A DNA stretch of 64,000 nt from contig OX031056.1 in NCBI GenBank assembly GCA_943736015.1, positions 67,545,277 through 67,609,276 on the forward strand, read 5' to 3'. The notes under the pieces are model-generated. The model searched no databases. It was not told the origin of the DNA and saw only the letters and a list, made by a program, of their open reading frames with translations. This document shows, in pieces, positions 1-64,000 of this stretch. Position 1 is the first letter of the stretch; each line of letters begins with the position of its first letter. The position numbers and the translations under genes were made by a program. The DNA comes from Tridacna crocea. Taxonomy: Eukaryota; Mollusca; Bivalvia; Cardiida; Cardiidae.

Positions 1-102
1 AGAAAATGCTGATAACCAGCATTTTCTCCTATTCCCACAATGTTTTCTAAAGGCTTCTTCCTCAGGGTCGTCAAAAGTAGGGATTGCGTTGTAATGGGTT
101 AA
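1..102 (-). repeat. TTAA hairpin MITE, cut by window start
   Basis: Second half of the element: GCTGATAACCAGC centre, right stem, and terminal GTAATGGGTTAA. Confidence 0.85.
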
Positions 103-111
103 TCTGGAAGA

Positions 112-344
112 TTAAATTCTTTACCACATTACAAAAATGTAGAAATTTTCCAGATTGAAAGCAATTTCTGAGGAATATTTAAATGTTGCTGAAATAGTTA
201 AATTCTTTCATAGCATAGAAATCATTGTTGGAAAAGGAGAAAATGTTGGTTACCAGCATTTCCTCCTTTTCTCACAATGTTTTCAGAAGCATTTTTCTTC
301 TGGGTCAATCATGATAACTCATCATTGTGTAGTAAAAAGGTTAA
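112..344 (-). repeat. TTAA hairpin MITE, diverged
   Basis: Bounded by TTAA at both ends. Stems around GTTGGTTACCAGC are imperfect. Confidence 0.75.
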
Positions 345-470
345 CACAGTACTAAACAATCCTGTGTTCTTAATTCCAAAAGATAAATGCTGAAAACTGT
401 GGAAAACTGTGTGGAAAAAGGAGAGAACCCATAGCACTGTCTGTCAACCACTAATCAAACAATCCTGTGT

Positions 471-2103: not shown

Positions 2104-2332
2104 TTAACTCTTTACCAAACAACAAAATTTTAGACTGGTTCAAATTGAAAGCATTTGCAGACGACAAAATGAAAGTGACTGAAAATTTGAAATTTGTTTT
2201 GTGAAGGGTAGAAAACATTGTGGGAAAAGGAGAAAATGCTGATTTCCAGCATTTTGTCCTTTTCCCACATTGTTTTCAAAAGGCTTTTATCTCAGGGTCG
2301 TAAAAACCAGCGATTGTTTGGGAAAGGGTTAA
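2104..2332 (-). repeat. TTAA hairpin MITE
   Basis: Ends in TTTGGGAAAGGGTTAA. The terminal TTAA is shared with the next copy in opposite orientation. Confidence 0.9.
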
Positions 2333-2557
2333 CCCATTACCACACAATCCCTACTTTTGACGCCCCTGAGAAAGAAGGCTCTAGAAAACATTGTGGGAAA
2401 AGGAGAAAATGCTGGTAAACAGCATTTTCTCCTTTTCCCACAATGTTTTCTACCCTTCACAAAACAAATTTCAAATTTTCAGTCACTTTTATTTTGTTGT
2501 CTGCGAATGCTTTTAATTTGGACCAGTCTAAAATATTGTCGTTTGGTAATGAGTTAA
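2329..2557 (+). repeat. TTAA hairpin MITE, near-consensus reference copy
   Basis: About 225 bases between TTAA duplications. The 5' end is CCCATTACCACACAATCC and the 3' end GTCGTTTGGTAATGAG. The centre is a palindrome of about 66 bases running from GAAAACATTGTGGG to CCCACAATGTTTTC around GCTGGTAA/ACAGC. Between stem and 3' end lies a conserved unpaired arm (TTTCAGTCACTTTTATTTTG, then CTTTCAATTTGGACCAGTC in other copies). There is no open frame of transposase size. The TTAA duplication and CCC start fit a piggyBac-type non-autonomous element; that assignment is inference. Confidence 0.9.
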
Positions 2558-2713: not shown

Positions 2714-2715
2714 TA

Positions 2716-3310
2716 GAAAAAGCTGTTTACCAGCATTTTCTCCTTTTCCTATAACGTTTTCTAAAGGATTCTTTCCCAGGGGCGTCAAAAGTAGGGATTG
2801 TGTGGTAATGGGTTAACCAACTTTTAAAGAGGAAGTCTGTTGAACATATAGTTGGTTAAGGAAGAAAATGATGGTAATCAACTTTTGTTTCCTTTTTGTA
2901 CATAGTTTTTATACGTTTTTTTCCCCCTTCCAATTTCCAAATTCAATTTGTCCTTCGCAAAATGCTTTATATAGTATTTGCTAAGGCAACTATAGCCATG
3001 AAAAATGTTTTAAAGATTAAGCTATAGAAGGTATAGATGATAGTATGGTAATATTGCATTTTATACTGGCTTTTGTTTGTCTTTCATTAGCTGTTTCTTT
3101 ATAACGGTTCTTATTACTAGTACTTGCTTTCATTGGTCTTTCAATTACTTTATAATAACAGTTCCTTATGATCATACTTCAAAAAGCTCTTAGTCTATGT
3201 AGATGTCAAGATTTTTCATTGTTAGAAACAAACTTCATTCACTATTTTAAATGGACATATCACTTTGTCTGGTATTTTCACTGAGGATAGATTATTCAGA
3301 ATTATCATTG
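2716..3310 (+). repeat. 595-bp duplicated block, copy 2
   Basis: Appears identical to 599-1193. Its first 100 bases are the right half of a hairpin MITE ending in TTAA at 2813-2816. Confidence 0.9.
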
Positions 3311-4621: not shown

Positions 4622-4856
4622 TTAACCCTTTACCAAACAACCCCTGGTTTTTACGGCCCTGAGATACATGTAGAAGCTTTTTGAAAACATTGATGGAAAA
4701 GGAGAAAATGCTGGTAACCAGCATTTTCTCCTTTTCCCACAATGTTTTCCACCATGCTGGAAACAAATATCAATTTTTGGGTTAGGTTTATTTTGTCGTC
4801 TGCAAGTGCCCTCAATTTGGACTGGTCCAAAATTTTGTCGTTTGGGAAAGGGTTAA
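4622..4856 (+). repeat. TTAA hairpin MITE
   Basis: Starts CCCTTTACCAAACAACCCC and ends GTTTGGGAAAGGG. The stem is almost perfect around GCTGGTAACCAGC. Confidence 0.9.
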
Positions 4857-4870: not shown

Positions 4871-5082
4871 GGTAACCCTTCAACAAACAACATAATGGTA
4901 GATTTGTCTGAATTGAAAGTACTTGCATGCAGATGATTAAATGTACTTTAACTGATGGAATTTTGGGTAGAAAATGTGGAGCGACAAGGAAGAAATGCAG
5001 GCCACCAGGTTTTTCTTACAATGTTTTCCTAATGCTTCTTCCCCGGGGTAATTAAACCTAGGATAGTGTAGTAAAGGGTTAA
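4871..5082 (-). repeat. TTAA hairpin MITE, diverged
   Basis: Right terminal TAGTAAAGGGTTAA is clear; the central palindrome has decayed. Confidence 0.6.
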
Positions 5083-6440: not shown

Positions 6441-6667
6441 TTAACCCTTTCCCAAACGACATATTCTAGACTCTTCCAAACTCAAAGAGTTTGCAGACGA
6501 CAATTTCAAATTTGATAAAAATGACAAAAAGTTCTCCAAATGGTTAGGAAACACTGTGGGAAAAGGAGGAATTGCTCGTTACGAGCAATTTCTCCTTTTC
6601 CCACATTGTTTTCAAAAGACTTGTACCGCAGACACGTAAAAACAAGGGCTTGTTTGGGAAAGGGTTA
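6441..6667 (-). repeat. TTAA hairpin MITE, CGTTACG-loop subfamily
   Basis: Ends are CCCTTTCCCAAACGAC and GTTTGGGAAAGGG. The apex is GCTCGTTACGAGC instead of GCTGGTAACCAGC; the stem AGGAGGAATTGC still pairs with GCAATTTCTCCT apart from one base. Confidence 0.9.
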
Positions 6668-6844
6668 AAGATGCTTCAGAAGAAGGTTTTTGAAAGCATT
6701 GGTGGAAAAAGAGAACACACTGTTAACCAGCACTTCTTTTCTGTGATGTTATCAGCTATCTCTAAGACAGAAATCAACCTTTGAGTTACATTGAGTTTGA
6801 CATCTGTAGATGTTTTCTTTTTTTGTTGGAGTCTAAAATAGAGT

Positions 6845-6992
6845 TTATTTCATCATCTTGTGGTTAATTTGGGGAAATATTTGTCGAAAAAGGGAAAGGT
6901 CCGCAAAAATAACAAGTGCCGTAAGGCACAATTTGTTTTCGCTGACCTTTCCATTTTGAGGCAAATATTTCCCACAAGCTGATGAAATGAAT
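6845..6992. repeat. Unrelated foldback element, ~148 bp
   Basis: Imperfect inverted arms (ATTTCATCATCTTGTGG with CCACAAGCTGATGAAAT; GGGAAATATTTG with CAAATATTTCCC) surround the inner palindrome GTGCCGTAAGGCAC. No family recognised. Confidence 0.65.
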
Positions 6993-7579: not shown

Positions 7580-7799
7580 TTAACTCATTACCAAACGACA
7601 ATATTATAGACTTGTCCAAATTGAAAGCATTTGCAGACGACAAAATAAAAGTGACTGAAAAATTAGAATTTGGTTTGTGAAGGGTAGAAAACATTGTGGA
7701 AAATGCTGGTTACCAGCATTTTCTTCTTTTCCCACAATGTTTTCTAAAGGCTTCTTTCTCAGGGGCGTCAAAAGTGGGGATTGTGTGGTAATGGGTTAA
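7580..7799 (-). repeat. TTAA hairpin MITE, shortened left stem
   Basis: TTAA-bounded. The left stem has lost the GGAAAAGGAG segment, leaving ATTGTGGAAAATGCTGG. Confidence 0.88.
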
Positions 7800-8602: not shown

Positions 8603-8831
8603 TTAACCCATTACCACACAATCCCTACTTTTGACGCCCCTGAGAAAGAAGCCTTTTGAAAACACTGTGGGAAAAGGAGAAAATGCTGGTAACCAGCATT
8701 TTCTCCTTTTTCCACAGTGTTTTCTACCCTTCCCAGAACAAATTTCAATTTCTCAGTCACCTTTATTTTGTCGTCTGCAAATGCTTTCAATTTGGACTAG
8801 TCTAAAATATTGTCGTGTGGTAATGAGTTAA
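8603..8831 (+). repeat. TTAA hairpin MITE
   Basis: Near-consensus. The stem uses ACACTGTGG, and the right arm shows CCACAGTGTT, so the pairing is kept. Confidence 0.9.
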
Positions 8832-9042: not shown

Positions 9043-10574
9043 TATACCCCCCAAAACTCTGTTTGGGGGGTATATAGGAGTTAGCTTGTCGGTCGGTCTG
9101 TCGGTCGGTCCGTCCGTCCGTCCGTCGGTCTGTAGCTTTTTGTCCGCTCTATTTCTCATAAACTACTGGACGAATTTTATTCAAACTTCACAGGTAAACT
9201 CAGTATCAAGCAGAGATGTGCATATAAAATGTTGGTTATGGTTCATTGATTTTTCACTGAGTTATGGCCCTTTTGTGAAATTTCTTGTCCGCTCTTTTTC
9301 TCATCAACTATTGGACAGATTTGGTTCAAACTACACAAATAGACTCAGTATAAAGCAGAGATGTGCATATCCTATTTTGGTTATGGTTTATTTAGGTTTC
9401 ATGGAGTTATGGCCCTTTGATGATTCTGGACAAATTTCTTTTTCATACTTGAATTTCGTCCGGAGCATATCTCCAAAACTATACTAGCTAGGCTTATGAA
9501 ATTTCATGGGTGGATAGATCTCATCGAGCGGGAGTGCAGTGCGCAGGAATCATAACTCTTGCTAGCTTAATTTTTGAGTTATTGCCCTTTGTTGGTTTCT
9601 TATACTTGAATTTTGTCCGGAGCGTATCTCCAAAACTGTACTAGCTAGCATTATGAAATTTCATGGGTGGATAGATCTCACCAAGGAGGAGTGCAGTGCA
9701 CAGGAATTATAACTCCTGCTTCCTTAATTTTTGAGTTATTGCCCTTTGTCGTTTTTAATACTTGAATTTTGTCCGGAGCGTATCTCCAAAACTATACTAG
9801 CTAGGGTTATGAAATTTCATGGGTGGATAGATCTCATCAAGGGGGAGTGCAGTGCTTAGGAATCATAACTTTTGCTCCCTTAATTTTTGAGTTATTGCCC
9901 TTTGTCGTTTTTCATACTTGAATTTTGTCCGGAGCGTATCCCCAAATTATACTAGCTAGGGTTATGAAATTTCATGGATGGATAGACCTCATCAAGGGGG
10001 AGTGCAGTGCACAGGAATCATAACTCTTGCTTGCTTAATTTTTGAGTTATTGCCCTTTTTCGTTTTTCATACTTGAATATGGTCCGGTGAATATCTCCAA
10101 AACTATACTAGCTAGGGTTATGAAATTTCATGGGTGGATAGATCTCATCAAGGGGGAGTGCAGTGCTTAGGAATCATAACTTTTGCTCCCTTTATTTTTG
10201 AGTTATTGCCCTTTGTTGTTTTTCATACTTGAATTTTGTCTGGAGCGTATCCCCAAAACTATACTAGCTTGGGTTATGAAATTTCATGGATGGATAGATC
10301 TCATCAAGGGGGAGTGCAGTGCACAGGAATCATAACTCTTGCTAGCTTAATTTTTGAGTTATTGCCCTTTGTCGTTTTTCATACTTGAATTTGGTCCGGT
10401 GCATGCCCCAGTTTAACAACTTGGGGGGGTAAGACGGGCGTATCTTGCAACAATTTGCTGGTCATGTTCAACTCTTACTTTTGTACTCAACAATTCTGCA
10501 TTCTGTGACAAAGACCTGTTTGGTGGCAAGGGGCTGGTGGGGGGTATGATCACGTTAAGTGATAGCTCTAGTTT
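9043..10574 (+). mobile_element. HINE-like (Helentron-associated) element with tandem core
   Basis: Terminal hairpin ATACCCCCCAAAACTC/GTTTGGGGGGTAT, then a GTCG/GTCC microsatellite (9087-9126), then about six ~145-bp direct repeats (9510-10400) each with TCCAAAACTATACTAGCTAG and GGGGGAGTGCAGTGC. It ends near GTGATAGCTCTAGTTTA. This layout matches the pearl/HINE elements described from bivalves. There is no Rep/helicase frame, so it is non-autonomous. The 182-residue frame at 8939-9487 crosses the 5' end and is not a gene. Confidence 0.65.
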
Positions 10575-10868: not shown

Positions 10869-11097
10869 TTAACCCTTTACTCCATAGATACTCATTTCTA
10901 CACATTGCTTGTAGGAGCCTTTGGAAAACATTGAGGCAAAAGGTGAAATTGCTCGTGACGAGCAATTTCAACTTTTGTCACAATGCTTTCTATGCTGTCA
11001 GAAGGTGTCATATGCACATAAGAAACAGCTTCATCCTTGCTTTTATTTAGGGTCAATAAGAGATACCATAGAAATGCCTCATGGGGTAAAGGGTTAA
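10869..11097. repeat. TTAA hairpin MITE, CGTGACG-loop subfamily
   Basis: Distinct flanks (CCCTTTACTCCATAGATACT and TGGGGTAAAGGG) with stem GCAAAAGGTGAAATTGC and apex GCTCGTGACGAGC. A sister copy lies at 45768-45987. Confidence 0.85.
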
Positions 11098-11612: not shown

Positions 11613-11827
11613 TTAATCCTTTCCCAAACGACAAATTTTGGACTCTTCCAAACTGAAAGACAATTTAGATTTTGAGAAAATGGCAGAAAGTTCCGTAAAA
11701 GGATAGAAAACACTGTGGGAAAAGGAGAAATTGCTCGTTACGAGCAATTTCTCCTTTTCCCACAGTGTTTTCAAAAGACTTTTACTACAGACACGTAAAA
11801 ACCAGGGCTTGTTTGGGAAAGGGTTAA
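11613..11827 (-). repeat. TTAA hairpin MITE, CGTTACG-loop subfamily
   Basis: Central palindrome from AAAACACTGTGGGAAAAGGA through GCTCGTTACGAGC and back appears perfect. Confidence 0.92.
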
Positions 11828-12124: not shown

Positions 12125-13860
12125 TTAACCCTTTCCCAAACAAGGCCTTATTTTTAGGTACAGTGGATTCCACTTAATCGCAACCCTGTTTATCGGGATT
12201 TTCGGTTATTTGCAAGACTTGGTCCAGCACCGATCCATTTCCTATCTAGACAACGTAAATTTCAACGCTTAATGGGGATCCCGTAAATAGAACATTTCGG
12301 TTTTTTGCAACGAACAATTAGCACATGATTCGAAATTCTAGTGTTTATTAGCAATTCCGTGGGATAAGACAGCGAAAAATTTCAATCTGTCCGGGAAAAA
12401 AAAAGGTTACTCAAAAAGATAACAGTCGAATTTCAATGCGTACAGAGAATCGCAGTTTAAAAACCAATGTAGCAGTATACAAACGACGAGTCCGACATGA
12501 TCCGTTTTCATAATTTAATCATTAAAGATAAAAATTCTTGGCGTATTTTATGTTATTCTTTTCATTTAAGAAAGTGTAATAACGGTTACAAAACATCTGC
12601 AAATGGCCGACATTCTAAATATGGAGCTTCACTGGTTGCCGATTTTCAAACTATTGGACGGTTTCTCGAGATTTCGGGTACCAGGCTGTTCATCCACCAC
12701 CAAGAGCACTGATTAATAAAATGGTAATTTTAGGGCCGGAAAAATGGCGAAAAGATGACTACATGTACTTAAATCTTGTCTTGGTATAACTCGGGAAAAA
12801 AACAAACGAACATAGACGTTCTATGATCAGACTACACATTCTGTGCAGTCCGATCTTTATCTACGCTCCCCGAAAGCAACTGCAGACGAATTCGGCACTT
12901 TACCCGTTACAAGAAAGACCGATCAAAATAACCTATCACCGATCAGATAATTACACACGGGGGGGAAAAAAAACTTAATTGTTTGTTAGTGTCTCGTCGA
13001 TAATCCAATTTGTGACAAACAATTTGACTACAGGCGTGAAAGTAAGGTGTACCGAATGTAAACTGTGAAAAACACAGAAAACCGTTTCTTATCTCGGTCT
13101 GCTTTGAATGGTATGGCCTATTTTGATGCGTTAAAATAGAATCGTCTGGACGGCAATCAGTCTATGACGTCAACCAAAATTTACCCACCCATCAACCTAA
13201 CAGGTGGCGAGTCGGGGTTTATACAGGTGCACAGCACACAATCATGTTGCGTAAGAATGTACATGTACACATGGAGTAAATGTTAGATAACCGGAAACTG
13301 GAGATATGCGTCGAAACCTGTGTTGACAAAAAAATTGTGTTGAATTTTATGTCAAACGAAGCACCACCATGGCTAACACCCAGGATCGTTTCTGGTGCTT
13401 TGTGCACTTGATAGCCTAGGTAAATAAGCAAACAAACGATTTTTTAAAACTTGTTTGAAATACATATATTTAAAAAAATTATGAACATTAATCAAATGAT
13501 CGGGATGCAAGAGCTGAACGTCTGTCAATAGAACGAAACGATCGTCTGCAACTCTGGTTTGACTTCCGGTCTGAAAAGAGCCATCGGATTATCGGGCCGA
13601 CCGCTTATTCGCAATATTTTCTCTGACAAATAGGACTTGCAAATAAGCGGAATCTACTGTATCTGCAGTACAAGTCTTTTGAAAACACTGCTGGGAAAAG
13701 GAGAAATTGCTCGTAATGAGCAATTTCTTCTTTTCCCACAGTGTTTTCAACCACTTTAGAGAAATTGCGGCCATTTCCATAAACTTTTTTTAAAAATTGT
13801 CGTCTGCAAACTCTTTCAGTTTGCGTGGGTCTAAAATTTGTAGTTTTGGAAAGGGTTTAA
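12125..13860 (+). repeat. TTAA hairpin MITE split by a Tigger-like insertion
   Basis: Left part 12125-12160 (CCCTTTCCCAAACAAGGCC) and right part 13660-13860 (hairpin with GCTCGTAATGAGC, end GAAAGGGTTTAA) rejoin into one normal CGTTACG-type copy once the insert and one TA are removed. Confidence 0.88.
12161..13659. mobile_element. Tigger/pogo-like non-autonomous DNA transposon
   Basis: Terminal inverted repeats CAGTGGATTCCACTTA and its counterpart CAGTAGATTCCGCTTA (reverse strand) are flanked by TA on both sides (12159-12160, 13660-13661). Length 1499. The CAGTGGAnnCC-type terminus and TA duplication are typical of pogo/Tigger elements of the Tc1/mariner group. No transposase motif was visible in its short frames. 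GC is higher than in the surroundings. Confidence 0.85.
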
Positions 13861-18210: not shown

Positions 18211-18211
18211 G

Positions 18212-49080: not shown

Positions 49081-49271
49081 TTTCAGCGGTAGTTTTCAAT
49101 GGAAATTCCTTTGTCATGTTCCCCAGGCAGAGTCTACGTAATTATGTATTGGAATCAAACACTGAAATTGAAAATATTTTGATACTGAGAAACTTAAGTA
49201 AATGAACTATACACAACTCTTTCAAATGAAATAGAGAGCAGTCTAAATAATTATCGTCGTAATTTTTTTAA

Positions 49272-51644: not shown

Positions 51645-51659
51645 AGCTATGATAGGAAA

Positions 51660-51771: not shown

Positions 51772-54700
51772 GTAAGTCATTATCATCTCAACCATATCTA
51801 ACATATAGATCTAGCTGTGTTGCAACTTTACCCTTTTTCCATTGGAAAATTTGACTTATCCCACAATACCACACAGTCCCTACTTTTGACGAACCTCAGG
51901 GAAAGAACCCTCTAGAAACATTGTGGGAAAAGGAGAAAATGCTGGTAACCAGCATTTTCTCCTTTTCCCACAATATTTTCTACCTTTTACAAAACAAATT
52001 TCAAATTTTCAGTCTCTTTTATTTTGTCGTCTGCAAATGCTTTTGATTTGGACGTTTGGTAAATGAGTAATATCTTATAATGATCACAGCAGACGGCTTT
52101 CAGAACACTGCTGGAAAAGGGGCATTTAATACACGCCATTGCACTTTGTCCCACAATACTGATAGTATTATTCTGATGTTTTTGTTTTATTTCTTTCAGC
52201 ACCAAATAGATAAAGTTGACCTCTTTGGACAGCTCTAAATACAATCCAGTGAAACTTGAAAAAGATTTTGACTGTATAGGCATGACTACACAAGTGGATG
52301 GCATAGATCATTCTGTGCAGTCTGCAGTCTAATCTTGATCTCTGTCATCCACTACTTTCAGTCTGAAGGTGTCTGCTCTGATGCTATTTTTGTTACTGGT
52401 CTTCGCATTCATGTGAATGCGAAGACCAGTAACAAAAATAGCATCGGAGCAAACACCTTCAGACTGAAGGTATGCCATCCAGAAAAGTCACTGTTTTCAC
52501 CAGTTGAGCTGAAAGGTTAACTTTTTTCCAATAGATAATGTTTTACACTTGCCATTTTGTAAGCATTTGCAGAAGACAAAATTTATGTGGTTCTGACAGT
52601 TAGAAATTTTCATTAACTCTTTACCACACAATCCCGACTTTTAAAGACCCTCAGAAAAAAGCCTTTTGAAAACACTATGGGAAAAGGAGAAAATGCTTGT
52701 AACCAGCATTTTCTCCTTTTTTTCACAGTGTTTCCTACCTTTCCCAAACCAAATTTTCATTTTTTCAGTCAACTTTTATTTTGTTGTCTGCAAATGCCAT
52801 CAATTCGGACCAGTCTAAAATTTTCTCGTGTGGTAAAGAGTTAAAAGGGTAGAGTAAAAGCATTGTGGAAAGAGGAAAAAAAAAATGCTGGTAACCAGTA
52901 TATTCTTATTTTCTTCATTTTGCCTCTCCTGTCTTTCAGCAACATGTCATTCAGTGTCTGCACATACTTTTTTGATTTGGGCAGTGCAAAATGTTGTTGT
53001 AATCCTTAGAAAAAAATTGTATTAGGAAAGTTAGAAAACATTATGGGAAAAGGAGAAAATGCTGGTTAACAGCATTTCCTTCTATTCCCACAATGTTTTC
53101 AAGGCTTTTTTTCTCAGGGACATCAAAAATCGGCATTGTGTGGTTAAAGTTTAATTAGGGAAACTGTCTAGACCTCATCTAGGTCTGAAGGAGACGGGAA
53201 TATATAGAAATGCTCATCAACTCTTTACCACATAATCCCGACTTTTAACAACCCTGAGAAAGAGGCCTTATAAAACATTGTGGAAAAAGGAGAAAATGCT
53301 GGTAACCAGCATTTTCTCCTTTTTCCACAATGTTTTCTTCCCTTCTCAAAACAAGTTTCAAATTTTCAGTGGCTTTCAGTTTGCACCAGTATAAAGTTTT
53401 GTTGTTTGGTAAAGAGTTTTTAGCTACAAGTGTATCATGCTCTGGCAGAAAGGGGGCTTAATGCATCTCAATATATAACAAACATTACCTAATTATGAAT
53501 CTGTAAAATCTGCTTCTTCGACTCACCAAGTGAATCATGAGATTAAATTAACCTTTGACAGGCAGAAAATTTATAGATAGCGAAAAGTTTTGATCCATGT
53601 CAGCCTGAGCGAGCTGCGCATGCTGACATGGGTCAATATTTTTCACGAATGCATGAAGCCCCCTCTTCACAGAGCATGGCTCACACATAATACAAAATGC
53701 TTTGATTTTGGACTGGTTCAGATTTTTTTATTTAAATTGTAAATGGTGAAAACATTGCAGTAATGGAGAAAATGCTGGTTACCAGCTGTTACCAGCATTT
53801 CTTCGTTTTCTACAGTATTATCTACCCTTTTTCAGATAAACCTAGTCATTTGGACTATTCTGTTATTTGTTGGTCTGCAAAATGCAGGCTGATCTAACTT
53901 CATTCTATAATTGTTAATAATGGAAATCAGCTGTACTTTGTATACATGTTTATACAGATAGAGTTGGAGGAAGAACATTGACTGTTGATCTAAAATCATC
54001 CACAGGAACTGACAGATGGGATCTAGGAGCGCAGTGGGTCGGCGGGTATGATTTCTTAATACCTTTACTGCACAATTGGGCTTTTAACAACCCTGAGAAA
54101 GAAGCTTTTTGAAAACATTGTGGGAAAAGGAGAAAATGCTGGTAACCAGCATTTTCTCCTTTTCCCACAGTGTTTTTTACCCTTCCCAAATCAAATTTCA
54201 ATTTTTCAGTAACTTTTACTTTGTCATCTGCAATTTGGACCAGTCTTTAATTTTCTCATGTGGTATAGAGGTAACCTCTTTTGTGCTTATACTGGAGTAA
54301 ATCCTCAATATGGATAAAAAATAAGTGAGGAAAAAAAGATACTCACAGATTATAAAGCAAAAACCCCAAATATTGAGTGCTGCATAAACCCAACGGTCAA
54401 CCAACACCTTTAGTCTAAAACTTGGGCCCAAGTAATTGCAATTTTATGGGTGCTCTGAATGACAATGTTTCAACAGAGCAGACATAGAGCATCTTGTTGC
54501 AGTCTGATGTTGATCTGCACTCGCCACAGAGTCAACTTTTGTTGTGAAAGATGCTTTGAGGGAAAAATGACATTTGAACTAGACTACCTTATCTAACAAA
54601 ATATCAAAAAACGCTTGTAGATTAGACTACTTATGGGCCCAGGTTCATTCTGGAGCACATTTTTGTACCATACAAGCATGGATTTCATCTGTGGCATATT

Positions 54701-57700
54701 AACTCTTTAACCTTTTACTATACAATGCCGATTTTTGACGCCCCTGGAAAAGAAGCCTTTTGAAAACATTGTGGGAAAAGGACAAAATGCTGATAACCAG
54801 TATTTTCTCCTTTTCCCACAATGTTTTCTACTCTATCAAAGAAAGATTACACCTTTTGAACCACACTGAAAGCGTCACCTGTAAATGCTTTCAATTTGGA
54901 CAAGGCTTAAATTTTGTCATCTGGTAAAGGGTTAACTCATTACCAAATGACAATATTTTAGGCTTGTCCAAATGGGAAGCACTTGCAGAGGACAGTTTCC
55001 AGCAGAGTAGATTGTGGTTACCAGCAGTTTCCCCTTGTCCCGAAATGTTTTCAAAAGGCTTCTATCTCAGGGTTGTAAAAGTCACAGATTGTTTGGTGAA
55101 GGGCTAACCCATTACCAAACAACAATATTTTAGACTGGTCCAAATTGAAAGCATTTGCTGACGACAAAATAAAAGTGACTGAAAATTTGAAATTTGTTTT
55201 GTGAAGGGTAGAAAATACTGTGGGAAAAGGAGAAACTGCTGGTTACCAGCAGTTTCTCCTTTTCCCGAAACGTTTTCAAAAGGCTTCTATCTCAGGGTTG
55301 TAAAAATCAGGGATTGTTTGGTGAAGGGTGAAGCAAACAATGAAATTTTAGACATGACCAATTTAAACCTTGTAGCAGACAACAAATTAAATAATATGTA
55401 TATCTTATATCATGATTTCTGTCTATGATAAGGTAGAAAACATTGTTGGAAAGGGAGAAAATACTGGTTTCTAGCATTTTCTGCTTTTCCCCCAGTATTT
55501 TCTAAAGCCTTCTCTTTCGGGGTCATTAATCCGTATTGTATAGTGTTTTCAGCATTTTTTCAATTATTGTGGCAACCAGTGCATTTATCCATGCTTTCCT
55601 AGAATGTCTTTTAGCAGTACCCCACACAACATTCTTTCCAAGCCACTGGCTGCTTTCCCACTTAGCCATCATTGAGCGGTGAATGAGGAATGAATTCTGT
55701 TGCAATGACTATCACCAATCCTCGGAAAGAAATTGGCCGAGCTGGGGATCGAACCCGGGACCCCCAGTTCTCAGGTCCTGTATTCTACCAACCGAGCTAT
55801 CTGGGCTCGGCTCAGGGTCATTAACCCATTAACCCATTACCACACAATCCCTACTTTTGACGCCCCTTATAAAGAAACCTTTAGAAAACATTGTGGGAAA
55901 AGGAGAAAATGCTGGTAACCAGCATTTTCTCCTTTTCCCACAATGTTTTCTTCCCTTCCCAAAACAAATTTTGTCGTATGGTAATGAGTTAACTCTTTAC
56001 CACACAATCCCGAATTTTAACGACCTGGTGTAGAAGTCTTTTGAAAACATCATGGGAAAAGGAGAAAATGATGGAAACCAGCATTTTCTCCTTTTCCCAC
56101 AATGTTTTCTACCCTGTCACATAGAGAAATCATCAGTTTAGCTACATTCAATAATTATGTCGTCTGCAAAAGCTTTGAATTTGGTCTAGTCCAGAATTTT
56201 GTTGTTTGGTAAAGAGTTAAAAGTAATGGATTGTGTAAAGCTCTAGTTATACCAGTATTCATATTCTTGCTCCCTTGATTACTCAAGATTTCGGGCTATT
56301 TTGCAGGTCACAAAGACACATTATGACGTTAATCAACGAGCTAGGGCTCGAGACCCATAAACAGTATCTTAAGGGAAGAAAGTTTGTCCAGATTGGAAAA
56401 GATTATTCTATCAGATCCTATACATCAGATATCCCAACATTATCTGTTCTTGGATTATTGGACCTTGATAGAACCATGAAGAAGGTAAATGAACGTAATC
56501 TGGCAAAAATGGGCTTAAGTCTTTACCCAACGACGAAATTTTAGACTGTCTCAAATTAAGAGCACTTGCAGAGGACAAAATAAATTTAACTCAAAAATCA
56601 AAATTTGTTTCCAGCAGGGTAGAGAACATTGTGTGAAAAGGAGAAAATGCTGGTTACCAGCATTTTCTCCTTTTCCCACAATGTTTTCAAAAGGCTTCTA
56701 TCTTAGGGTCGTAAAAACCAGTGATTGTTTGGTAAAGGGTTGATGCATCTCGGTGATTCATGATACTAAGGAAGTCATCACATGAATCTGATCAGCAATA
56801 TCCATTTTCTATAGCAAGAGACAGAATTTTGAGGTGCATTGCTGTATTGACATGCAGGAAATTGCCAAGTACGTATCAAAAAGTTTCGACTCAGGTCAGC
56901 CTGCATGGTACTTCACAGGCTGACCTGAGTTGAAACTTTTTGCAGATCTATGCATTTGAGTCCCCATTTTTATAAAAAAAATGTATGCTGGATTAGTTTG
57001 ATATAGAGAAATGAAAAATAATTTACCATAATGTTATCTTTACATATATATATATATATATATAGGATCTGACATGAGTTGATATTCAGATAAAATTTTA
57101 TTAAACGAGTCTAGGGAATTTGTTATTAAGTGAGCCTTTGGCAAGCTTAATAACATTTTTTTCTTGACGAGTTTAATAAAATTTTTATCACATACGCCAA
57201 CAAAATGTCAGATTCTTTTTATCACATAACATGATTTCACAGGTCATAGATCTAAAGATGCAAAACCATCTAAAGATACACACTCTGTAGTATCTGTCAT
57301 AAACCCATTCACTTTTTTGATATACATACAAAACGACGTCAAAAGTGACGTCACACAATTGTGATATTACACATGTTTAAGATAAGAAAATTCATAATGG
57401 GTATATTACACTGAAAACAAGAGAGGTTATGTGATAAAGAAATATACACATATTAAATTTTTCTATATGTTAAGCACTTGTATATGTGTGTCCATACATG
57501 ATCTGGTGCAATAATTACTTGATGGATCAAGCAAGGATTAAGAAATCAAAAAAAGAAGTAATAACAACAATGACAATGAAAACTTAGCTTCCTGGGCCCA
57601 ACCATGGAAAAAAAATGTGACTAGACTGGTTATCCACACATTTTCATCTAAATTTTGTTCAACTCGGTCTCTTTACCAAACGATGAAGTGGTCCAATTTG

Positions 57701-60700
57701 AAAGCACTTAAGTCTTGCAGACAACAATATAAACGGAATTCAAAAATTGAAATTTGTTTCTAGCAGGGTTAAAAACATTGTGGGAAAAGGAGAAAATGCT
57801 GGTTACCAGAATGTTTTCAGAAGGCTTCTATCTCAGGGTCTTAAAAACCAGGGATTGTTTGGTAAAGGGTTAATTTTGCTCAGAATACTTGATTCAGTAA
57901 GACCTGAGAAGTACTGGTAATACGCGTTAATGTGAGTCAGAAACTACATTATGCTTTGGAATACAATGCTATGTAGCCTTTTGTCACAAAACTTAGAGAG
58001 TTTGTCTTGATTAAAGTTGCTTTGGGTTAAAATTAGGTCATGGGATCATTCTATGTAATGAAAGCATCTAGTACCATGAAATCCATCTTTCTTTACCAAG
58101 TATGAGTTTTATGTTGACATTTTTATTTCAGTTAAGCAATTCAGGAAAGACAACATTCTCTTCTTGTTTTATTTTGCCTTTATATACAGGTAGATAGGCT
58201 GGCTGCTGAGATTGATACAGAGCAGCCATTTTCATGTGAAAGAGCCAGTGAGTGGGATGGGATGACTTTGGAAACATTTCTAAAACAGTCTATGTGGATT
58301 GCAGGTTAGCTAATCACCTTCTCTTTTATTAATCGTTTTACAAAAAATAACAAGTTTTAACAACCTTGAGAAAGAAATTTTTAGTACCAGCATTTTCCCC
58401 TTTTCCCACATTGTTTCCTACCCTACTGAAAAAATTTCAATTTTTGAATTACGTTTATCTTGTCGTCTGCAAGTGCTTTCATTTTGGACCAGTCTAAAGA
58501 GTTAAACCAGTCCGGAGATAGTTGTATACATGATCTATACATATAATGCATTAACATGACCCATGCTCTTGCAAAAGGGGCTTTAACTCAGTACCATACA
58601 ACAATATTTCAGGCTTGTCCAAATTGAAAGCATTTGCAGACGACAAATTAAAAGTGACTGAAAATTTGAAATTTGTTTTGTGAAGGGTAGAAAACATTGT
58701 GGGAAAAGGAGAAAATGCTGGTTACCAGCATTTTCTCCTTTTCCCACAATGTTTTCTAAAGGCTTCTTTCTCAGGGACGGCAAAAGTAGGGATTGTGTGG
58801 TAATGGGTTAATACATCTCTGTGGTGTATTACACCAAGTACAAGTCATTTTATAACAATAACAAAAATCATTTTGTCTAAATAAATTAAGAAGATGAGTG
58901 AGTGTAAGAATGATTTTGATTGGATGTAGGATGGATGAGGATCATGGGAAGTATGGGATTTGGAGAGGCAGATTTTAGGATGAGAGAGACAGAAATTAGT
59001 TTGGCTTTGAAGAATTTAGACCTATTTTAGAATTTTTGGATAAATTAAATTAGAAAATGAAATTTTGAAAACGAAACTTCTGACTTGACTTATTGTGTGA
59101 ATTTCCAATAATTATATTGAAAAAAAAATATAGACAATGACTATACAATAACAGATTATCATCGTCACAATTATTTGCATATTTTTCAATGATATTATTT
59201 ATATTTAAATGCATTTTAACACTCACTTTATTTACTTTTGGCAGCTATTGTCACTATAAACTTGTTACCTTCTGAAATAATTTACTACAGATTACATTGA
59301 AAATATCCATCTGAAAAAAGGGATGATTAATATGATTAGAAAATGAGCTCAGTTTGAGTATTTTCTCAGAAGGACACACTCTTTTCCCAAGTGATCTGTT
59401 GAAACATAACTGACATCTACATTGTGGAAATATGTAAAATGGAATCTGTCCTGTCTTTATCTATATACAGAAGCGAGGGAATTGTTCACATTGGCCATCC
59501 GAGGAGTGATTGGTGTTGAAGTATCCCAGATATCCTTGCTGTTTTTCCTGACGTATGTCCAATCTGCTGGAGGTCTCTCCAAGCTGATAGAAAGTACTGA
59601 TGATGCAGCGCAGGAAGCTACTATTAAGGTTTTCCTTTAAGCTTTTACCCCACAATTCTGACTTTTAATGACCCTTAGTGAAAACCCTCTTGAAAACATT
59701 GTTGGAAAAGGAAAACAAAATCCTGGTAACGGGCATTTTTCCTTTTTCCCCAGATCTCTTACTGAAAAATCCAACTGTTTAAAACTTAAAGTGACTTGCT
59801 GTCTACAGTAAATAATTTTCATTTGGCAAAGTCTAAAGTTTTGTGGTTTAATAATGATTTAAACAGCAGACCTCTCAATTTTAGAACCATCTACCGTGAC
59901 AGCATTTACAGGGGTTTTAAAAGTTGGGATTGTGTGGTAAAGGGTTAAAGCAGGGACCCTTGTCATGTTGAAAGCTGCAAAATCTTTCAAAATTTCTTAT
60001 TATTTTACATTTAAACAGGGGGGCACCCAACAGATTTCCAAAATCATAGCAGGAGAGCTTGGAGATTCCAGAGTCCATCTGAATGAGCCTGTGACGTCTA
60101 TAAATCAAGAGAATGAGACTGTCACTGTGCAAACAGAAGAAAACAAGACCTACACATCGAGGAAAGTTATTTTAGCCATTCCACCTTCTCAGATTGGTGA
60201 GTTTGTACTAGAATTTTTGTAATATTAATGAGTTAAGCCTTTACCACACAATGACCACTTTTAATGACCCTGGGAAAGAAGCCGTTTGACAACATTGTGG
60301 GAAACAGAGAAAATGCTGGTAACCAGCATTTTCTCCATTTCCCATGATGTTTTCTACTCATCAAAGAAAAATTACACCATTTGAGCCACAGTGAAATTGT
60401 TGTCTGCAAAATGCTCTCAATTTGGACAAGGCTAAAATTTTGTTTCTCAGGTAAAGGGTTACGACTAATAGTTTTGTAATATTGGTGAGTCCACTACTAA
60501 ACTTTTTGTAATATTGGTGGGTTTAGTACTAGACTTTTTGTCATTTTGGTGAGTTTAACATAACACTTTTTGTAATATTTATGAGTTTAGCACCAGATTT
60601 TTGTAACATTAGTGAGCTAACCCTATAGTTTTGTTATATTGGTGAGTTTAGCACCAGACATTTTGTAATATTAGTGAGTTAACCAATAGTTTGTCATGTT

Positions 60701-63579
60701 GGTGAGTTAAGCAACAGATTTTTTGGTAATATTAGTGAGTTTTGCACCAGACTTTTTGTAATATTAGTGAGTAAACACAATAGTTTTGCAATATACATGA
60801 GTTTAGCTCAAGACTTTTTGTAACATTAATGAGTTAAGCCAATAGTTTTGTTATATTGGTGTGTTTAGCAACAGATTTTTTGTAATATTAGTGAGTTTTG
60901 CACCAGACATTTTGTAATATTAGTGAGTTAACCCAATAGTTTTGTTATATTGGTGAGTTTAGCAACAGTTTTTTTTGTAATACTAGTGAGTTCTGCACCA
61001 GATTTTTTTGTAATATTAGTGAGTTAACCCAATAGTTTTGTTATATTGGTAAGTTTAGCACCAGACTTTTTGTAATATCAGTGAGTTAACACAATAGTTT
61101 TGCAATATACATGAGTGTAGCTCCAGACTTTTTGTAATATTAGTGAGTTAACCCAGTAGTTTTGTTATATTGGTGAGTTTAGTTTTGTTATATTGGTGAA
61201 TTTAGCAACAGATTTTTTTTGTAACATTAGTGAGTTTAGCAGCAGACTTTTTGTAATATTAGTGAGTTTAGCACAAGAAGTTTTGTAATATTAGTGAGTT
61301 TAGCACCAGCATTTTTGTAATATTAGTGAGTTAACCCAATAGTTTTGTTATATTGGTGAGTTTAGCACCAGACTTTTTGTAATTTTGTGAATTGTGATAC
61401 CAATATGAAACAATTCTGGGCTTCAATGACCCTGATGAAGAAGCCTTTTGTTTTGAAAACAGTGAGAAGAAAGAATGCTGGTAACCTGCATTTCATTCCT
61501 TTTCCCACAATGCTTTCTGTCCTTTCAAAGATTGTTATCATCACTTGGACTGAAGATAATTTGTAGTCTGCAAAGGCTTTCAATTTCTAAAATTTGATTG
61601 TTTGGTAAAATTAATACTGACAATTTTTTTTTTTTTTTTTATCTTTTTCAAGAATATGTTGGAAAAAAAGAAAGAAATGAACAGGGCATAAGGCTTAACC
61701 CTTTACCACTCAACAAGATTTTAGACATGTCCGAATTGAAAGCATTTGCTGATGACAGTTTCAATGTGGCATATAATGAAATAATTTTTCTTTGATAGGG
61801 TAGTAAACATTGTGGGAAAAGGAGAAAATGCTGGAAACCAGCATTTTCTCCTTTTCCCACAATGTTTTCCACCCTTCACACATCAAATTCCAAATTTTCA
61901 GTCCCTTTTCTTTTGTCATCTGCAAATGCTTTCACTTTGGACAAGCCTAAAATATTGTCGTTTGGTCATGAGTTAAGTACCTGCAGACAATGAATATCTT
62001 TTGGAGCAACCACCATGGAAGTATTGTTTTAAAGCCATTTTTTATGGTGATGAGCTTGTTTTGCACAGTGTTTTTCCACTTACATGTACATTACTTAAAT
62101 AATAAACCTTGATTGATATTGATTTTAAATTTACCATCTGAAAATATTTTCAACTTCAATTTCATTCACCCTCTTTCTGTTCTTAAAGGGCATATCAGAT
62201 TCACTCCGAGACTTCCCACAACAAATAGAGAACTATATCGGCGAATGCCCATGGGTGACTATGTTAAGGTTATAGTGACGTACAAAGAGGTTTGTCATTA
62301 TATATCATTCATTCTATGTGGAAAGGTGATTTAACTCTTAACCACATGACAAAAATATGGACTTGTCCAAATTGAAAGCATTTGCAGACAACAATGTAAG
62401 CATGGCTCAAATGATGGAATTTGTGTTTGATAGGGTAGAAAACATTGTGGGAATTGATAGTTGTCTGGCCAAGGCTAGCCAATGATAAACAACTAGGTTG
62501 TGAGAATTGATAGTTGTCTGGCCAAGGCTAGACAATGAAAAACAACTAGGTTGTGAGAATTGATAATTGTCTATCCAAGGGTAGACAGTGAAAAACAACT
62601 AGGTTGTGAGAATTAATAATTGTCTGGCCAAGGCTAGACAGTGATAAACAACTAGTTGTGAGAAATGATATTTGTCTGGCAACAGCTGGACAATGATAAA
62701 CAACTAGGTTGTGATAATGTATAATTGTCTGGCCAAGGCTAGACAAAAAAAACAACTAGGTTGTGAGAATTGATAATTGTCTTGCAGAGGCTAGACAGTG
62801 ATAAACAACTAGGTTGTGAGAATGGATAATTGTCTGGCCAAGGCTAGACAATGAAAAACAACTAGGTTGTGAGAAATGATAATTGTCTGGCCGAGGCTAG
62901 ACAAAAATAAACAACTTGTTCTGAGAATTGATAATCAGGCCAAGGCTAGACAATGAAAAACAACAAGGTTGTGAGAATTGATAATTGTCTGACCAAGGCT
63001 GGACAATGAAAAACAACAAGGTTGTGAGAATTTATAATTGTCTGGCCAAGGCTGGACAATGATAATCAACTAGGTTGTGAGAATTGATTATTGTCTGGCC
63101 AAGGCTGGACAACGATAAACAACTACGTTCTGAGAATTGATAATGGTCTGGCCACGGCTGGACAACGATAAACAACTAGGTTGTGAGAATTGATAATTGT
63201 CTGGCCAGGGCTGGACAACGATAAACTACTAGGTTGTGAGAATTGATAATTGTCTGGCCACGGCTAGACAATAATTAACTACTAGGTTGTGAGAATTAAT
63301 AATTGTCTGGCCAAGGCTAGACAATAAGCAGTTCTTCCAACCTGGTTAGATACTGTTGATATGCACAACACTATTTACATGTTCTCTATACTTCACCAGG
63401 CGTTTTGGAGAACCGATGGCAACTCAGGTGAAGTGGTAACCAATGGAGGTTCAAGCCCCTCATCTACCTGTACTTCGGGACCGTTATGTTTGGTGTTCGA
63501 TAAAACTTCAGCCAATGGAAGTCCTGCTCTTGTGGCCTTTCTGGGAGGTAGTCAGGCAATAGAATGGAGACTCATGGAG
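51660..63579 (+). CDS. Flavin monoamine oxidase, 5' eight exons (3' end outside window)
   Basis: Exons 51660-51771, 53958-54045, 56307-56484, 58190-58304, 59471-59628, 60019-60196, 62189-62289 and 63400-63579 join in phase to 1110 bases (370 residues). The N-terminus VVIVGAGISGLAAARYLL is a Rossmann GxGxxG (G10, G12, G15) with the ribose-binding Glu35, followed by DRVGGRT (38-44) and LGAQWVGG. Internal motifs match the MAO/PF01593 fold: ELGLETHKQY, SEWDGMTLETFL, DDAAQEATIKGG, SRKVILAIPPSQIG, YRRMPMGDYVKVIVTYKEAF. Members oxidise primary or secondary amines with FAD, releasing aldehyde, ammonia and hydrogen peroxide. Vertebrate MAOs are ~527 residues, so about 150 residues are missing, including the SGGC-type segment where MAO binds FAD covalently. 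Whether the flavin here is covalent and whether there is a membrane anchor therefore cannot be judged. Substrate is unknown. Confidence 0.92.
51858..52070 (+). repeat. Hairpin MITE in oxidase intron 1
   Basis: Core palindrome intact; both terminal TTAA are lost (end GTTTGGTAAATGAGTAAT). Confidence 0.83.
52357..52472. repeat. Long near-perfect hairpin, ~57-base arms
   Basis: TTCAGTCTGAAGGTGTCTGC... TTCGCATTCA is followed at once by its reverse complement, with two or three mismatches and almost no loop. Outer traces GTGGATGGCATA (52292) and TATGCCATCCA (52471) suggest a larger foldback element of ~195 bp. Confidence 0.88.
52613..52844 (+). repeat. TTAA hairpin MITE
   Basis: CTCTTTACCACACAATCCC to GTGGTAAAGAG; right stem extended by a T run. 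Confidence 0.88.
53005..53155 (-). repeat. Partial hairpin MITE
   Basis: Apex GCTGGTTAACAGC contains TTAA; end GTGTGGTTAAAGTTTAA. Confidence 0.72.
53218..53418 (+). repeat. Hairpin MITE, shortened 3' arm
   Basis: Perfect stem AACATTGTGGAAAAAGGAG; the right arm lacks GTCTGCAAATGC. Confidence 0.8.
53443..53690. repeat. MITE with GATCCATGTCAG hairpin
   Basis: Ends ATCATGCTCTGGCAG and CACAGAGCATGGCTC; inner arms AAAGTTTTGATCCATGTCAG and CTGACATGGGTCAATATTTTT (53580-53640). Sister of 39966. Confidence 0.6.
53958..54045 (+). CDS. Monoamine oxidase exon 2
   Basis: Acceptor GTTTATACAG, donor GGCGG|GTATGA. Encodes DRVGGRTLTVDLKSSTGTDR then WDLGAQWVGG, the second FAD-contacting motif. Ends in phase 2. 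Confidence 0.93.
54058..54270 (+). repeat. Hairpin MITE right after oxidase exon 2
   Basis: Starts 13 bases after the exon 2 donor. TTAA ends are lost; core perfect except at one position. Confidence 0.83.
54707..55332. repeat. Three hairpin MITEs in a row
   Basis: 54707-54935 (+), 54932-55108 (-, stem-deleted) and 55105-55332 (-) share their boundary tetranucleotides (TTAA; then CTAA). Confidence 0.85.
55340..55545 (-). repeat. Diverged hairpin MITE
   Basis: Stem AACATTGTTGGAAAGGGAG; apex CTGGTTTCTAGC; right end GTATTGTATAGTG. Confidence 0.65.
55556..55810 (-). repeat. tRNA-derived SINE, full length
   Basis: Minus strand: head with TAGCTCGGTTGGTAGA (A box) and GGGTTCGATCCCC (B box), ending CTCGGCCA, then the body TTTCTTTCCGAGGATTGGTG as at 36901. 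The tRNA-like part is better preserved here; a functional tRNA is unlikely because the SINE body follows. Confidence 0.82.
55829..55992 (+). repeat. TTAA hairpin MITE lacking the 3' arm
   Basis: Perfect core, then AAAACAAATTTTGTCGTATG joins directly, deleting ~65 bases. Confidence 0.88.
55989..56220 (+). repeat. TTAA hairpin MITE upstream of oxidase exon 3
   Basis: Shares TTAA with the previous copy; apex GATGGAAACCAGC is diverged. Confidence 0.87.
56307..56484 (+). CDS. Monoamine oxidase exon 3
   Basis: Acceptor TATTTTGCAG, donor AAG|GTAAAT. Encodes SQRHIMTLINELGLETHKQY and onward to LDLDRTMKK. The ELGLETxK segment is shared with animal MAOs. A hairpin element begins about 30 bases after the donor. 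Confidence 0.92.
56515..56743 (-). repeat. TTAA hairpin MITE 30 bp after oxidase exon 3
   Basis: TTAA left; right end AAAGGGTTGA. Perfect inner stem around GCTGGTTACCAGC. Confidence 0.88.
56877..56941. repeat. Short hairpin, GTTTCGACTCAGGTCAGCC family
   Basis: CAGGTCAGCCTG / CAGGCTGACCTG inner stem with AAAAGTTTCGACT / AGTTGAAACTTTT outer stem. Confidence 0.75.
57035..57435. repeat. (TA)n followed by a foldback element with CRE-like sites
   Basis: TA run at 57043-57064. AAAATTTTATTAAACGAGTC and GACGAGTTTAATAAAATTTT form an inverted pair, and TATCACATAACATG with GGTTATGTGATAAA an outer pair. Two TGACGTCA-like octamers (ACGTCAAAAGTGACGTCAC) lie at about 57335. Confidence 0.55.
57668..57873 (-). 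repeat. Hairpin MITE, right stem deleted
   Basis: GCTGGTTACCAGAATGTTTTC joins the apex to the distal flank; TTAA at 57870. Confidence 0.82.
58190..58304 (+). CDS. Monoamine oxidase exon 4
   Basis: Acceptor TTTATATACAG, donor GCAG|GTTAGC. Encodes VDRLAAEIDTEQPFSCERAS then EWDGMTLETFLKQSMWIA. EWDxMTxxxxL is a family signature. Confidence 0.92.
58348..58505 (+). repeat. Hairpin MITE, left stem deleted
   Basis: AATTTTTAGTACCAGCATTTTC joins the flank to the right stem; ends GTCTAAAGAGTTAA. Confidence 0.78.
58583..58811 (-). repeat. TTAA hairpin MITE, near-consensus
   Basis: CTCAGTACCATACAACAAT to GTGTGGTAATGGG; the core palindrome appears perfect. Confidence 0.93.
58812..59470. other. Intron 4 of the oxidase, nothing recognised
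   Basis: AT-rich; no repeat or coding frame assigned. Confidence 0.45.
59471..59628 (+). CDS. Monoamine oxidase exon 5
   Basis: Acceptor CTATATACAG, donor AAG|GTTTTC. Encodes EARELFTLAIRGVIGVEVSQ, ISLLFFLTYVQSAGG and DDAAQEATIK, the helical substrate-domain segment of MAO. Confidence 0.91.
59637..59947. repeat. Compound hairpin MITE between oxidase exons 5 and 6
   Basis: Begins nine bases after the exon 5 end (TTAA 59637) and ends at TTAA 59944. A plus copy is fused to the end of a minus copy. Confidence 0.72.
60019..60196 (+). CDS. Monoamine oxidase exon 6
   Basis: Acceptor ATTTAAACAG, donor ATTG|GTGAGT. Starts GGTQQISKIIAGELGDSRVH and ends SRKVILAIPPSQIG: the GG-x-xQ turn and the conserved V-I-x-A-I-P-P strand that returns to the FAD. 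Confidence 0.93.
60233..60465 (+). repeat. Hairpin MITE after oxidase exon 6
   Basis: Starts GCCTTTACCACACAATGACC; stem GGGAAACAGAGAAAATGC has a mismatch; end AAAGGGTTACG. Confidence 0.83.
60466..61385 (+). repeat. Minisatellite in oxidase intron 6
   Basis: About 25 copies of a ~35-bp unit, roughly TTTTTGTAATATTAGTGAG plus TTTAGCACCAGAC. Two variants alternate in places (TTTAGCACCAGAC and TTAACCCAATAG), giving a ~70-bp higher-order unit. Confidence 0.9.
61393..61615 (+). repeat. Diverged hairpin MITE
   Basis: GAAACAATTCTGGGCTTCAA, stem remnants, and end GTTTGGTAAAATTAA. Confidence 0.65.
61695..61975. repeat. Fully palindromic hairpin MITE
   Basis: Both halves are the same half of the element: left arm ATTTTAGACATGTCCGAATT and right arm with GGACAAGCCTAAAATATTG. 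The foldback therefore spans the whole 281 bases between TTAA sites. Confidence 0.85.
62189..62289 (+). CDS. Monoamine oxidase exon 7
   Basis: Acceptor TGTTCTTAAAG, donor GAG|GTTTGT. Encodes HIRFTPRLPTTNRELYRRMP then MGDYVKVIVTYKE, matching I-x-F-x-P-x-L-P and the MG-x-x-x-K-x-x-x-Y substrate-domain strand. Confidence 0.92.
62332..62453 (-). repeat. Left half of a hairpin MITE, cut by a minisatellite
   Basis: TTAACTCTTAACCACATGAC to GAAAACATTGTGGGAA, where it changes directly into the array. Confidence 0.8.
62448..63328 (+). repeat. 53-bp minisatellite in oxidase intron 7
   Basis: About 16 copies of GGTTGTGAGAATTGATAATT, GTCTGGCCAAGGCTAGACAA, TGATAAACAACTA. Each unit contains a small inverted repeat (TTGTCTGGCC / GGCTAGACAA). 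It ends about 70 bases before exon 8. Confidence 0.93.
63400..63579 (+). CDS. Monoamine oxidase exon 8 (last in window)
   Basis: Acceptor TACTTCACCAG, donor GAG|GTAAGT. Begins AFWRTDGNSGEVVTNGGSSP and ends GFx-like ALVAFLGGSQAIEWRLME. The FW-R and cage-forming segment are as in the family. It carries a Ser/Thr-rich loop (SSPSSTCTSGP) relative to vertebrate MAO. Confidence 0.9.
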
Positions 63580-63617
63580 GTAAGTATGTTTAAGCGTTTA
63601 TCAAACCATCTCAAATT

Positions 63618-63795
63618 TATTAACTGCCTGAAAGATGCCTTTGGAAAACGCTGTAAATAAAGCAGAAAATGTTGGAACAACCAGCATTTTCTCCCTTTAC
63701 CTCAATGCGTTCTATCCTTCCAAACACAAATTAAGATTTTTTAGTCATATTTATTTTGTTGTCTGGAAATGGGCCTTCAATTTGGACACATTTAA
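63618..63795 (+). repeat. Diverged hairpin MITE
   Basis: Starts 40 bases after the exon 8 donor; GGAAAACGCTGTAAATAAAG stem, apex GTTGGAACAACCAGC. Confidence 0.68.
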
Positions 63796-64000
63796 CTCTT
63801 TACCACCGAATCCAGACTCTTAACAACCCTGAGAGAGAAGCTTTTTGAAAACATTGTAGGAAAAAGAGAAAATGCTGGTAACCAGCATTAGCTCCTTTTC
63901 CCACAATGTTTTCTACCCTATCAAATACAAATTCCACCACTTGAGCCATGTTTAAATTGTTGTCTGCAAATGCTTTCAATTTGGACAAGTCTATATTTTT
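63792..64000 (+). repeat. TTAA hairpin MITE, cut by window end
   Basis: CTCTTTACCACCGAATCC, near-perfect stem around GCTGGTAACCAGC, then the 3' arm up to GGACAAGTCTATATTTTT. Confidence 0.88.

Follow-up and report, generated by a model that had tools for sequence, protein, structure and literature searches.

The genome of Tridacna crocea contains hundreds of thousands of copies of a MITE that belongs to the piggyBac superfamily, lacks a transposase of its own and carries a long central palindrome. The best explanation, to which a probability of about 0.6 is assigned, is that the transposase of rare partner elements moves this MITE and that the palindrome is selected in cis for amplification. 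The family was followed from a 64,000-bp stretch of contig OX031056.1 (the window).

To delimit the family, an nhmmer profile made from 42 full-length window copies was run against the window. It yielded 107 non-overlapping pieces (from 197 raw matches), many of them fragments and 47 of them near full length. These pieces cover 18,453 bp (28.8% of the window), and the profile found nothing in five control sequences simulated from the window by a first-order Markov model. Adding family-specific profiles left the number of pieces at 107 and brought coverage to 29.1%, with 58 pieces on the plus strand and 49 on the minus strand. The original prediction, that at least 60 copies of one family lie in these 64 kb in both orientations, was thus borne out. 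Two pieces (2715–2816 and 2828–2968) lie within an exact 596-bp duplication (598–1193 and 2715–3310, ∼2.1 kb apart), which takes in part of a MITE copy.

The element had been described as a TTAA-bounded unit of ∼230 bp with a ∼66-base palindrome. It proved to be ∼229 bp long with both TTAAs counted (26 of the 42 full-length window copies keep the two of them), and its palindrome measures 67 bases, i.e. two 33-base arms plus one central base. In the consensus of family A (229 bp, TTAA at both ends) the arms are perfect and occupy positions 56–88 and 90–122. Pairing in individual copies is less complete: at least 30 of the 33 positions pair in 23 of 65 window palindromes, and all 33 in five. Families A, B1 and B2 (229, 228 and 229 bp) are short, homogeneous and non-coding, the longest stop-free stretch in their consensuses being 60–74 aa in six frames. 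The label 'foldback MITE' fits in part: this is a MITE with a long palindrome, but 'foldback' is loose for an element that carries its palindrome inside and, like piggyBac elements, has short terminal repeats. In Foldback (FB-type) elements the palindrome is formed by long terminal inverted repeats; here it lies at 56–122 of 229, and the terminal repeats are short and separate, so membership of that group was rejected.

The listed copies, whose coordinates come mostly from the nhmmer family profile, and the gene that hosts several of them are:

471–699 (−): full-length copy, family A
2104–2332 (−): full-length copy, family A, the left member of two head-to-head copies
2329–2557 (+): full-length copy, family A, profile seed, sharing a TTAA with its left neighbour (2104–2332)
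4622–4856 (+): full-length copy, family A
4873–5082 (−): full-length copy, diverged
6441–6668 (−): full-length copy, family B1, with the TTGCTCGT core
7580–7799 (−): full-length copy, family A
8603–8831 (+): full-length copy, family A, used for RNA folding
10869–11097 (+): full-length copy, family B2
11613–11827 (−): full-length copy, family B1, palindrome pairing 33/33
13857–14083 (−): full-length copy, family A
24991–25219 (−): full-length copy, family A
25705–25932 (+): full-length copy, family A
26928–27159 (−): full-length copy
27447–27655 (−): full-length copy
28036–28263 (+): full-length copy
28352–28579 (+): full-length copy, family A, of the lineage with the T>C/A>G pair, palindrome pairing 33/33
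30189–30420 (−): full-length copy
30598–30811 (−): full-length copy
31856–32082 (+): full-length copy with 96% identity to the family consensus
34936–35164 (+): full-length copy, palindrome pairing 33/33
35800–36029 (−): full-length copy
36293–36518 (+): full-length copy
40581–40809 (+): full-length copy, family A
45454–45667 (−): full-length copy
45771–45988 (+): family B2 copy, covering the model from position 12 onwards (family-specific profile)
46050–46278 (−): full-length copy
47363–47591 (+): full-length copy, family A
49269–49487 (+): full-length copy
50467–50693 (+): full-length copy, family A
51,645–63,657 (+): amine-oxidase gene, eight exon-like reading frames (PF01593 match)
52613–52844 (+): full-length copy, amine-oxidase gene intron
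53218–53418 (+): near full-length copy, same amine-oxidase intron as 52613–52844
54707–54935 (+): full-length copy, amine-oxidase gene intron
55105–55331 (−): full-length copy, amine-oxidase intron, core with one pair changed symmetrically from A-T to C-G
55829–55975 (+): 5′ part of a copy, palindrome pairing 33/33
55989–56220 (+): full-length copy, amine-oxidase gene intron
56515–56742 (−): full-length copy, amine-oxidase gene intron
57669–57873 (−): near full-length copy, amine-oxidase gene intron
58583–58811 (−): full-length copy, amine-oxidase intron, palindrome equal to the 69-base reference
59638–59862 (+): full-length copy, making up most of a 304-bp interval between amine-oxidase exon frames
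60233–60461 (+): full-length copy, amine-oxidase gene intron
63792–63999 (+): copy truncated by the window end

Copies had been predicted in nearly every intron of two genes. For the amine-oxidase gene, the pieces of which, joined by hand, match PF01593 with an E value of 2.6e-46, this holds for all seven intervals between the exon-like frames (1 to 8 copies per interval). The second proposed gene, a 327-aa frame at 33862–34845 on the minus strand, gave no Pfam match. The window also contains other repeats. Tandem arrays with 155–166-bp units are found at 9439–10404, 15682–16593, 18351–19564, 20150–21390 and 24174–24880, some of them inside longer repeats with inverted ends (e.g. the pair at ∼15.5 and 19.8 kb). 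A second foldback repeat, unrelated to the MITE, lies at 32429–32548 and 46291–46408; the two copies are ∼80% alike and each is its own inverted repeat. Another palindromic repeat (6872–6973) has a single copy in the window. The units of a 32/62-bp minisatellite (60467–61390) hold GTGAGTTAAC, reminiscent of the MITE end, and a 53-bp tandem array (62445–63325) occupies part of the last interval between amine-oxidase frames.

To measure abundance, 1,048,827,098 bp in 31 contigs were searched. A 19-base end pattern, allowing up to two mismatches, was found 494,687 and 496,787 times on the two strands (991,474 in all), while the reversed pattern used as a control gave 222 + 212 = 434. A 24-base stem arm (up to two mismatches) rendered 472,020 and 469,913 matches by strand, an intact palindrome scoring once on each. 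Palindrome cores were present at 198,302 places (35-base core pattern with five free positions), and the A-type 5′ end (34 bases, up to three mismatches) gave 76,096 and 76,162. A 25-base core had no exact match in a viral contig collection. Ten 4-kb loci elsewhere, hand-picked out of random draws, contained 39 pieces (0.975 per kb) covering 17.0% of their bases, with 0–40% per locus; resampling these loci gave 0.55–1.40 pieces per kb and 9–25% of bases. Extrapolation from the ten hand-picked loci puts the genome total roughly between half a million and 1.5 million pieces. The window, with coverage of 5% to 53% by 4-kb bin, is ∼1.7 times as dense as the ten loci (107 pieces per 64 kb versus 39 per 40 kb). 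Loci around piggyBac transposases were poorer in the MITE (9.5% of bases), as were eight loci near one end of the window's contig (5.3%). The window is therefore denser than average, but not unique, and the family is found genome-wide; the objection raised in advance, that this window might not be typical, does not hold.

The assignment to piggyBac rests on the insertion site, the ends and the partner elements. In one site pair the insertion was precise: a MITE occupies positions 844–1070 of locus L031, inside a young piggyBac copy, while locus L033, 98.7% identical over 2,234 bp, has a single TTAA at the insertion point. The family consensuses start with TTAACCCTTT. All three (A, B1 and B2) have CCCT at the 5′ end, and B1 and B2 have it at the 3′ end too, where the A consensus has CTCT; many A copies have CCCA. 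The piggyBac terminal motif has been given as CC[C/T]T (PMC2872659), and the partner element E024 (see below) has CTCT at both ends. By inspection, the first 18 bases of A recur at its 3′ end with few differences, a terminal inverted repeat in the 12–19 bp range.

Candidate partners were sought among the 118 genome-wide matches to PF13843 (DDE_Tnp_1_7), 30 loci being examined. Some of these have inverted-repeat ends within 1.5 kb and belong to other piggyBac groups. Extension of four loci led to two long elements: E024 (L051+L024+L052; 6,376 bp, perfect 14-base inverted repeats inside the TTAA) and E026 (L049+L026+L050; 7,217 bp, inverted repeats matching at 11 of 14 bases), with PF13843 E values of 4.4e-89 and 2.8e-88, respectively. 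The first 40 bases of the MITE 5′ end match E024 at 34 positions and E026 at 30; eight ends from four other piggyBac groups, used as a control, matched at only 15–22. At the 3′ end the values were 19 and 18 of 40, with little similarity past the terminal repeat. The MITE therefore kept the 5′ end and the terminal repeats of a partner, its interior being of other origin. A subterminal unit that is tandem in E024 and E026 is single in the MITE (by eye). The partners' tandem array occurs 11 times in the genome, at nine places, and each of the nine has a PF13843 match within ∼10 kb. MITE copies are nested within both partners (6.4 and 7.2 kb). For B2, the loci examined contained no convincing B2 end outside B2-like copies.

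The role of the palindrome was analysed through its mutations. The window and the ten loci supplied 52 full-length A-type copies, in which the palindrome had diverged from the consensus by 6.3%, the flanks by 18.3% and 16.7%, and the ends by 10.3% and 15.4%; the palindrome was less diverged than the 3′ flank in 44 copies and more diverged in seven. Kimura distances to the consensus ranged from 0.041 to 0.455 (median 0.133), indicating a prolonged amplification rather than a single burst. Variants were then sorted by frequency in 68 copies, having removed five loci as near-duplicates of L026 and all copies more than 22% diverged. Singletons were as common per cell in the palindrome (1.22%) as in the flanks (0.97% and 1.15%). 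Variants present in 2–3 copies amounted to 1.8% in the palindrome and 2.9% in each flank, and those in at least four copies to 2.2% versus 11.8% and 10.8%, i.e. ∼5 times rarer in the palindrome. Counted as distinct variants, there were 54 singletons and 15 shared by at least four copies over the 67 palindrome sites, versus 92 and 105 over 126 flank sites (Fisher P = 5e-6, shared variants being non-independent events whose number is inflated by subfamily structure). New mutations thus strike the palindrome normally, but their carriers seldom found lineages, as selection on amplification predicts. Protection after insertion predicts fewer singletons in the palindrome, and no such deficit was seen.

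It could be argued that the palindrome has no function, being inherited from a founder and seeming conserved through search bias or few master copies. Every search did begin from the window profile, sampling was small and the family sets were chosen by their cores. A set ascertained by ends only was therefore compared. Among 70 pairs of end patterns spaced 60–600 bp, 60 fell in the 210–239 bp bins and 68 had a recognisable arm; 62 measured 190–245 bp, and the 55 of these less than 22% diverged were used. The contrast was the same: singletons made up 1.33% in the palindrome and 1.1% and 1.5% in the flanks, and shared variants 1.8% versus 10.0% and 8.5% (P = 2.6e-4). Few masters would have limited the flanks too, yet these hold 105 shared variants against 15 in the palindrome (126 versus 67 sites). 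A palindrome without function is thus very improbable.

Only two palindrome variants were present in at least eight copies, T>C (15 copies) and A>G (17 copies); they are partners of one pair and occur together in 12 copies. Symmetry is not absolute, since 13 of the 15 shared palindrome variants of family A are entirely or almost one-sided. For the comparison of sister families, consensuses for A, B1 and B2 were made from 20 places each, chosen by exact cores (19, 19 and 20 of them aligned over a long stretch); core conservation within each set is thus by construction. A and B1 have their ends in common and resemble each other in the 5′ flank (0.68) and the 3′ flank (0.61), values reached by none of 60 shuffles. 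A and B2 agree at 57 of 67 palindrome positions (0.85), while their 3′ flanks agree at 36 of 89 (0.40), a chance level reached by eight of 60 shuffles, and their 5′ flanks at 0.49, just above the best shuffle (0.47). The arms pair perfectly in the A and B1 consensuses and with one mismatch in 33 in B2. All three pairs differing between A and B1 are compensated; A and B2 differ by four compensated pairs and one uncompensated (pair 14 of B2). When equal numbers of changes were placed at random, none of 100,000 trials was as extreme in either comparison with A. The events are few, five paired (pairs 9, 15, 22, 27 and 32 of the consensuses) and one unpaired, and the between-family comparison is by construction solely in the choice of the three cores, which were seen as symmetric in the window and then searched for as symmetric patterns.

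Paired changes might also arise by arm-to-arm correction, in which one arm is rewritten from the other by replication slippage or hairpin-templated repair and symmetry is a by-product of DNA mechanics that brings the element no gain. Consistent with this, a genome-wide search for cores with both members of a pair changed gave an excess of symmetric ones: 36 of the 50 listed (94 in all) for pair 27 (expected 0.365, P = 4e-7) and 32 of the 50 listed (426 in all) for pair 32 (expected 0.488, P = 0.02), the expectations being taken from the control's base choices in the listed rows, counted by eye. Paired complementary changes also numbered 111 in 132 copies, against a shuffle mean of 50, an excess partly due to subfamily structure. 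However, the 94 doubles at pair 27 were no commoner than those at two non-partner control positions (116 and 93), so correction of standing copies is rare. Slight arm-to-arm correction or minor symmetric lineages exist, but are not the main effect. Correction would in addition leave unexplained both the failure of one-sided variants to spread and the lower divergence of the palindrome (6.3% versus 16.7–18.3%), and as a full account it is unlikely. Given how weak the single-copy symmetric doubles are, the argument for selection rests on lineage-level variants.

A different proposal is that the hairpin acts as RNA: a read-through stem would be diced or edited, and the RNA selected because it shields the element from silencing or is used by the host. 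As anticipated for a transcribed copy, the element at 8603–8831 has a very stable predicted hairpin (−87.2 kcal/mol, z −11.8). The presence of copies in every amine-oxidase interval agrees with this proposal, as does the sole unpaired family change (pair 14 of B2), which fits a G-U pair on one strand. Against it, copies lie in both orientations, Rfam at its gathering threshold gave no match within the window, and the stem gains private changes at the flank rate after insertion, so resident copies show no sign of RNA use. Selection on the RNA is quite improbable.

The preferred reading remains a piggyBac MITE with a cis-acting palindrome. The transposase of the rare long elements of the L024/L026 clade would move the MITE by cut-and-paste into TTAA, as suggested by the 5′ end common to MITE and partners. 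The palindrome would not be neutral filler: one-sided changes arise at the usual rate but seldom found large lineages, and the lineages with a changed palindrome have had both arms altered to match. The failure of one-sided variants and the paired changes between lineages thus point to selection at the level of element amplification. From the variant spectra and the paired changes, we infer that the palindrome acts in cis, raising transposition or the copying that follows it, while inserted copies appear to decay unprotected. Its likeliest role may be to dock a DNA-binding partner that acts as a dimer (e.g. pairs of cysteine-rich domains) or to form a DNA hairpin in replication. A dimer site would favour symmetric changes, yet 67 bp would be long for one dimer, and the partners appear to lack the sequence: in the MITE-masked partners the best counterpart matched 15 of 20 bases, versus 13–14 in one shuffled copy of each, so direct binding of the transposase to the palindrome is unsupported by sequence. 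The ends of piggyBac and piggyBat contain palindromes to which C-terminal cysteine-rich domains are described as binding in pairs (PMC11707139). The L024 and L026 proteins likewise end in a Cys/His-rich stretch (by eye), although no zinc-finger Pfam model matched the partner proteins; the piggyBac palindromes are short (19 bp) and near the ends, whereas that of the MITE is 67 bp long and central.

A piggyBac MITE with an interior conserved across families is a kind of element already known from corals (PMC2872659). The CMITE families of Acropora are described there as duplicating TTAA and ending in piggyBac-type sequence (CCCTTT...); resemblance to their partner piggyBac is confined to the vicinity of the ends, and between families the interior is better conserved than the terminal repeats. 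A and B2 likewise have a conserved interior, with 57/67 in the palindrome versus 36/89 in the 3′ flank. CMITEs are ∼100 bp long, with ∼1,600 copies estimated in A. millepora, while the present element has 229 bp and hundreds of thousands of copies. Its conserved core, 67 bp long, is palindromic and shows paired changes; no mention of a palindrome was seen in the CMITE description (PMC2872659). Elements of the Kolobok superfamily also duplicate TTAA; a Kolobok origin was rejected since their termini are given as 5′-RR/YY-3′ (PMC9587614) and those of the MITE are 5′-CCC or 5′-CTC. The BogoMITE of Blepharisma similarly combines few autonomous copies with very many MITEs and nested insertions, but belongs to the Pogo family, duplicates TAA/TTA and is reported at ∼8,000 copies (PMC9942856). 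Four core strings searched as text in the literature gave one unrelated zebrafish paper. A limited search on palindromic piggyBac MITEs and very-high-copy MITEs listed no description of this element, which does not prove absence; within that limited set, the scale, the palindromic core and the variant spectrum are without counterpart.

These observations bear on an old question, why explosive spread is limited to a few MITEs. In a single genome, hundreds of thousands of copies stand beside candidate partners at about nine places, and the mutation spectrum points to a candidate cis-acting cause. More tentatively, and with the odds somewhat against it, the palindrome may be a portable amplification module, common to A/B1 and B2, that evolves only symmetrically in spreading lineages and allowed this group of elements to fill much of the 1-Gb genome. 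Were this so, a non-autonomous transposon would contain a site at which selection acts on dimer symmetry or on the structure of the DNA, and the palindrome would be a cis-amplifier with a role comparable to that of the enhancing internal sequences proposed for other MITEs (PMC2872659). In T. crocea itself, long near-perfect hairpins are very numerous in introns and elsewhere in non-coding DNA, which is relevant to work on small RNAs, editing and genome assembly.
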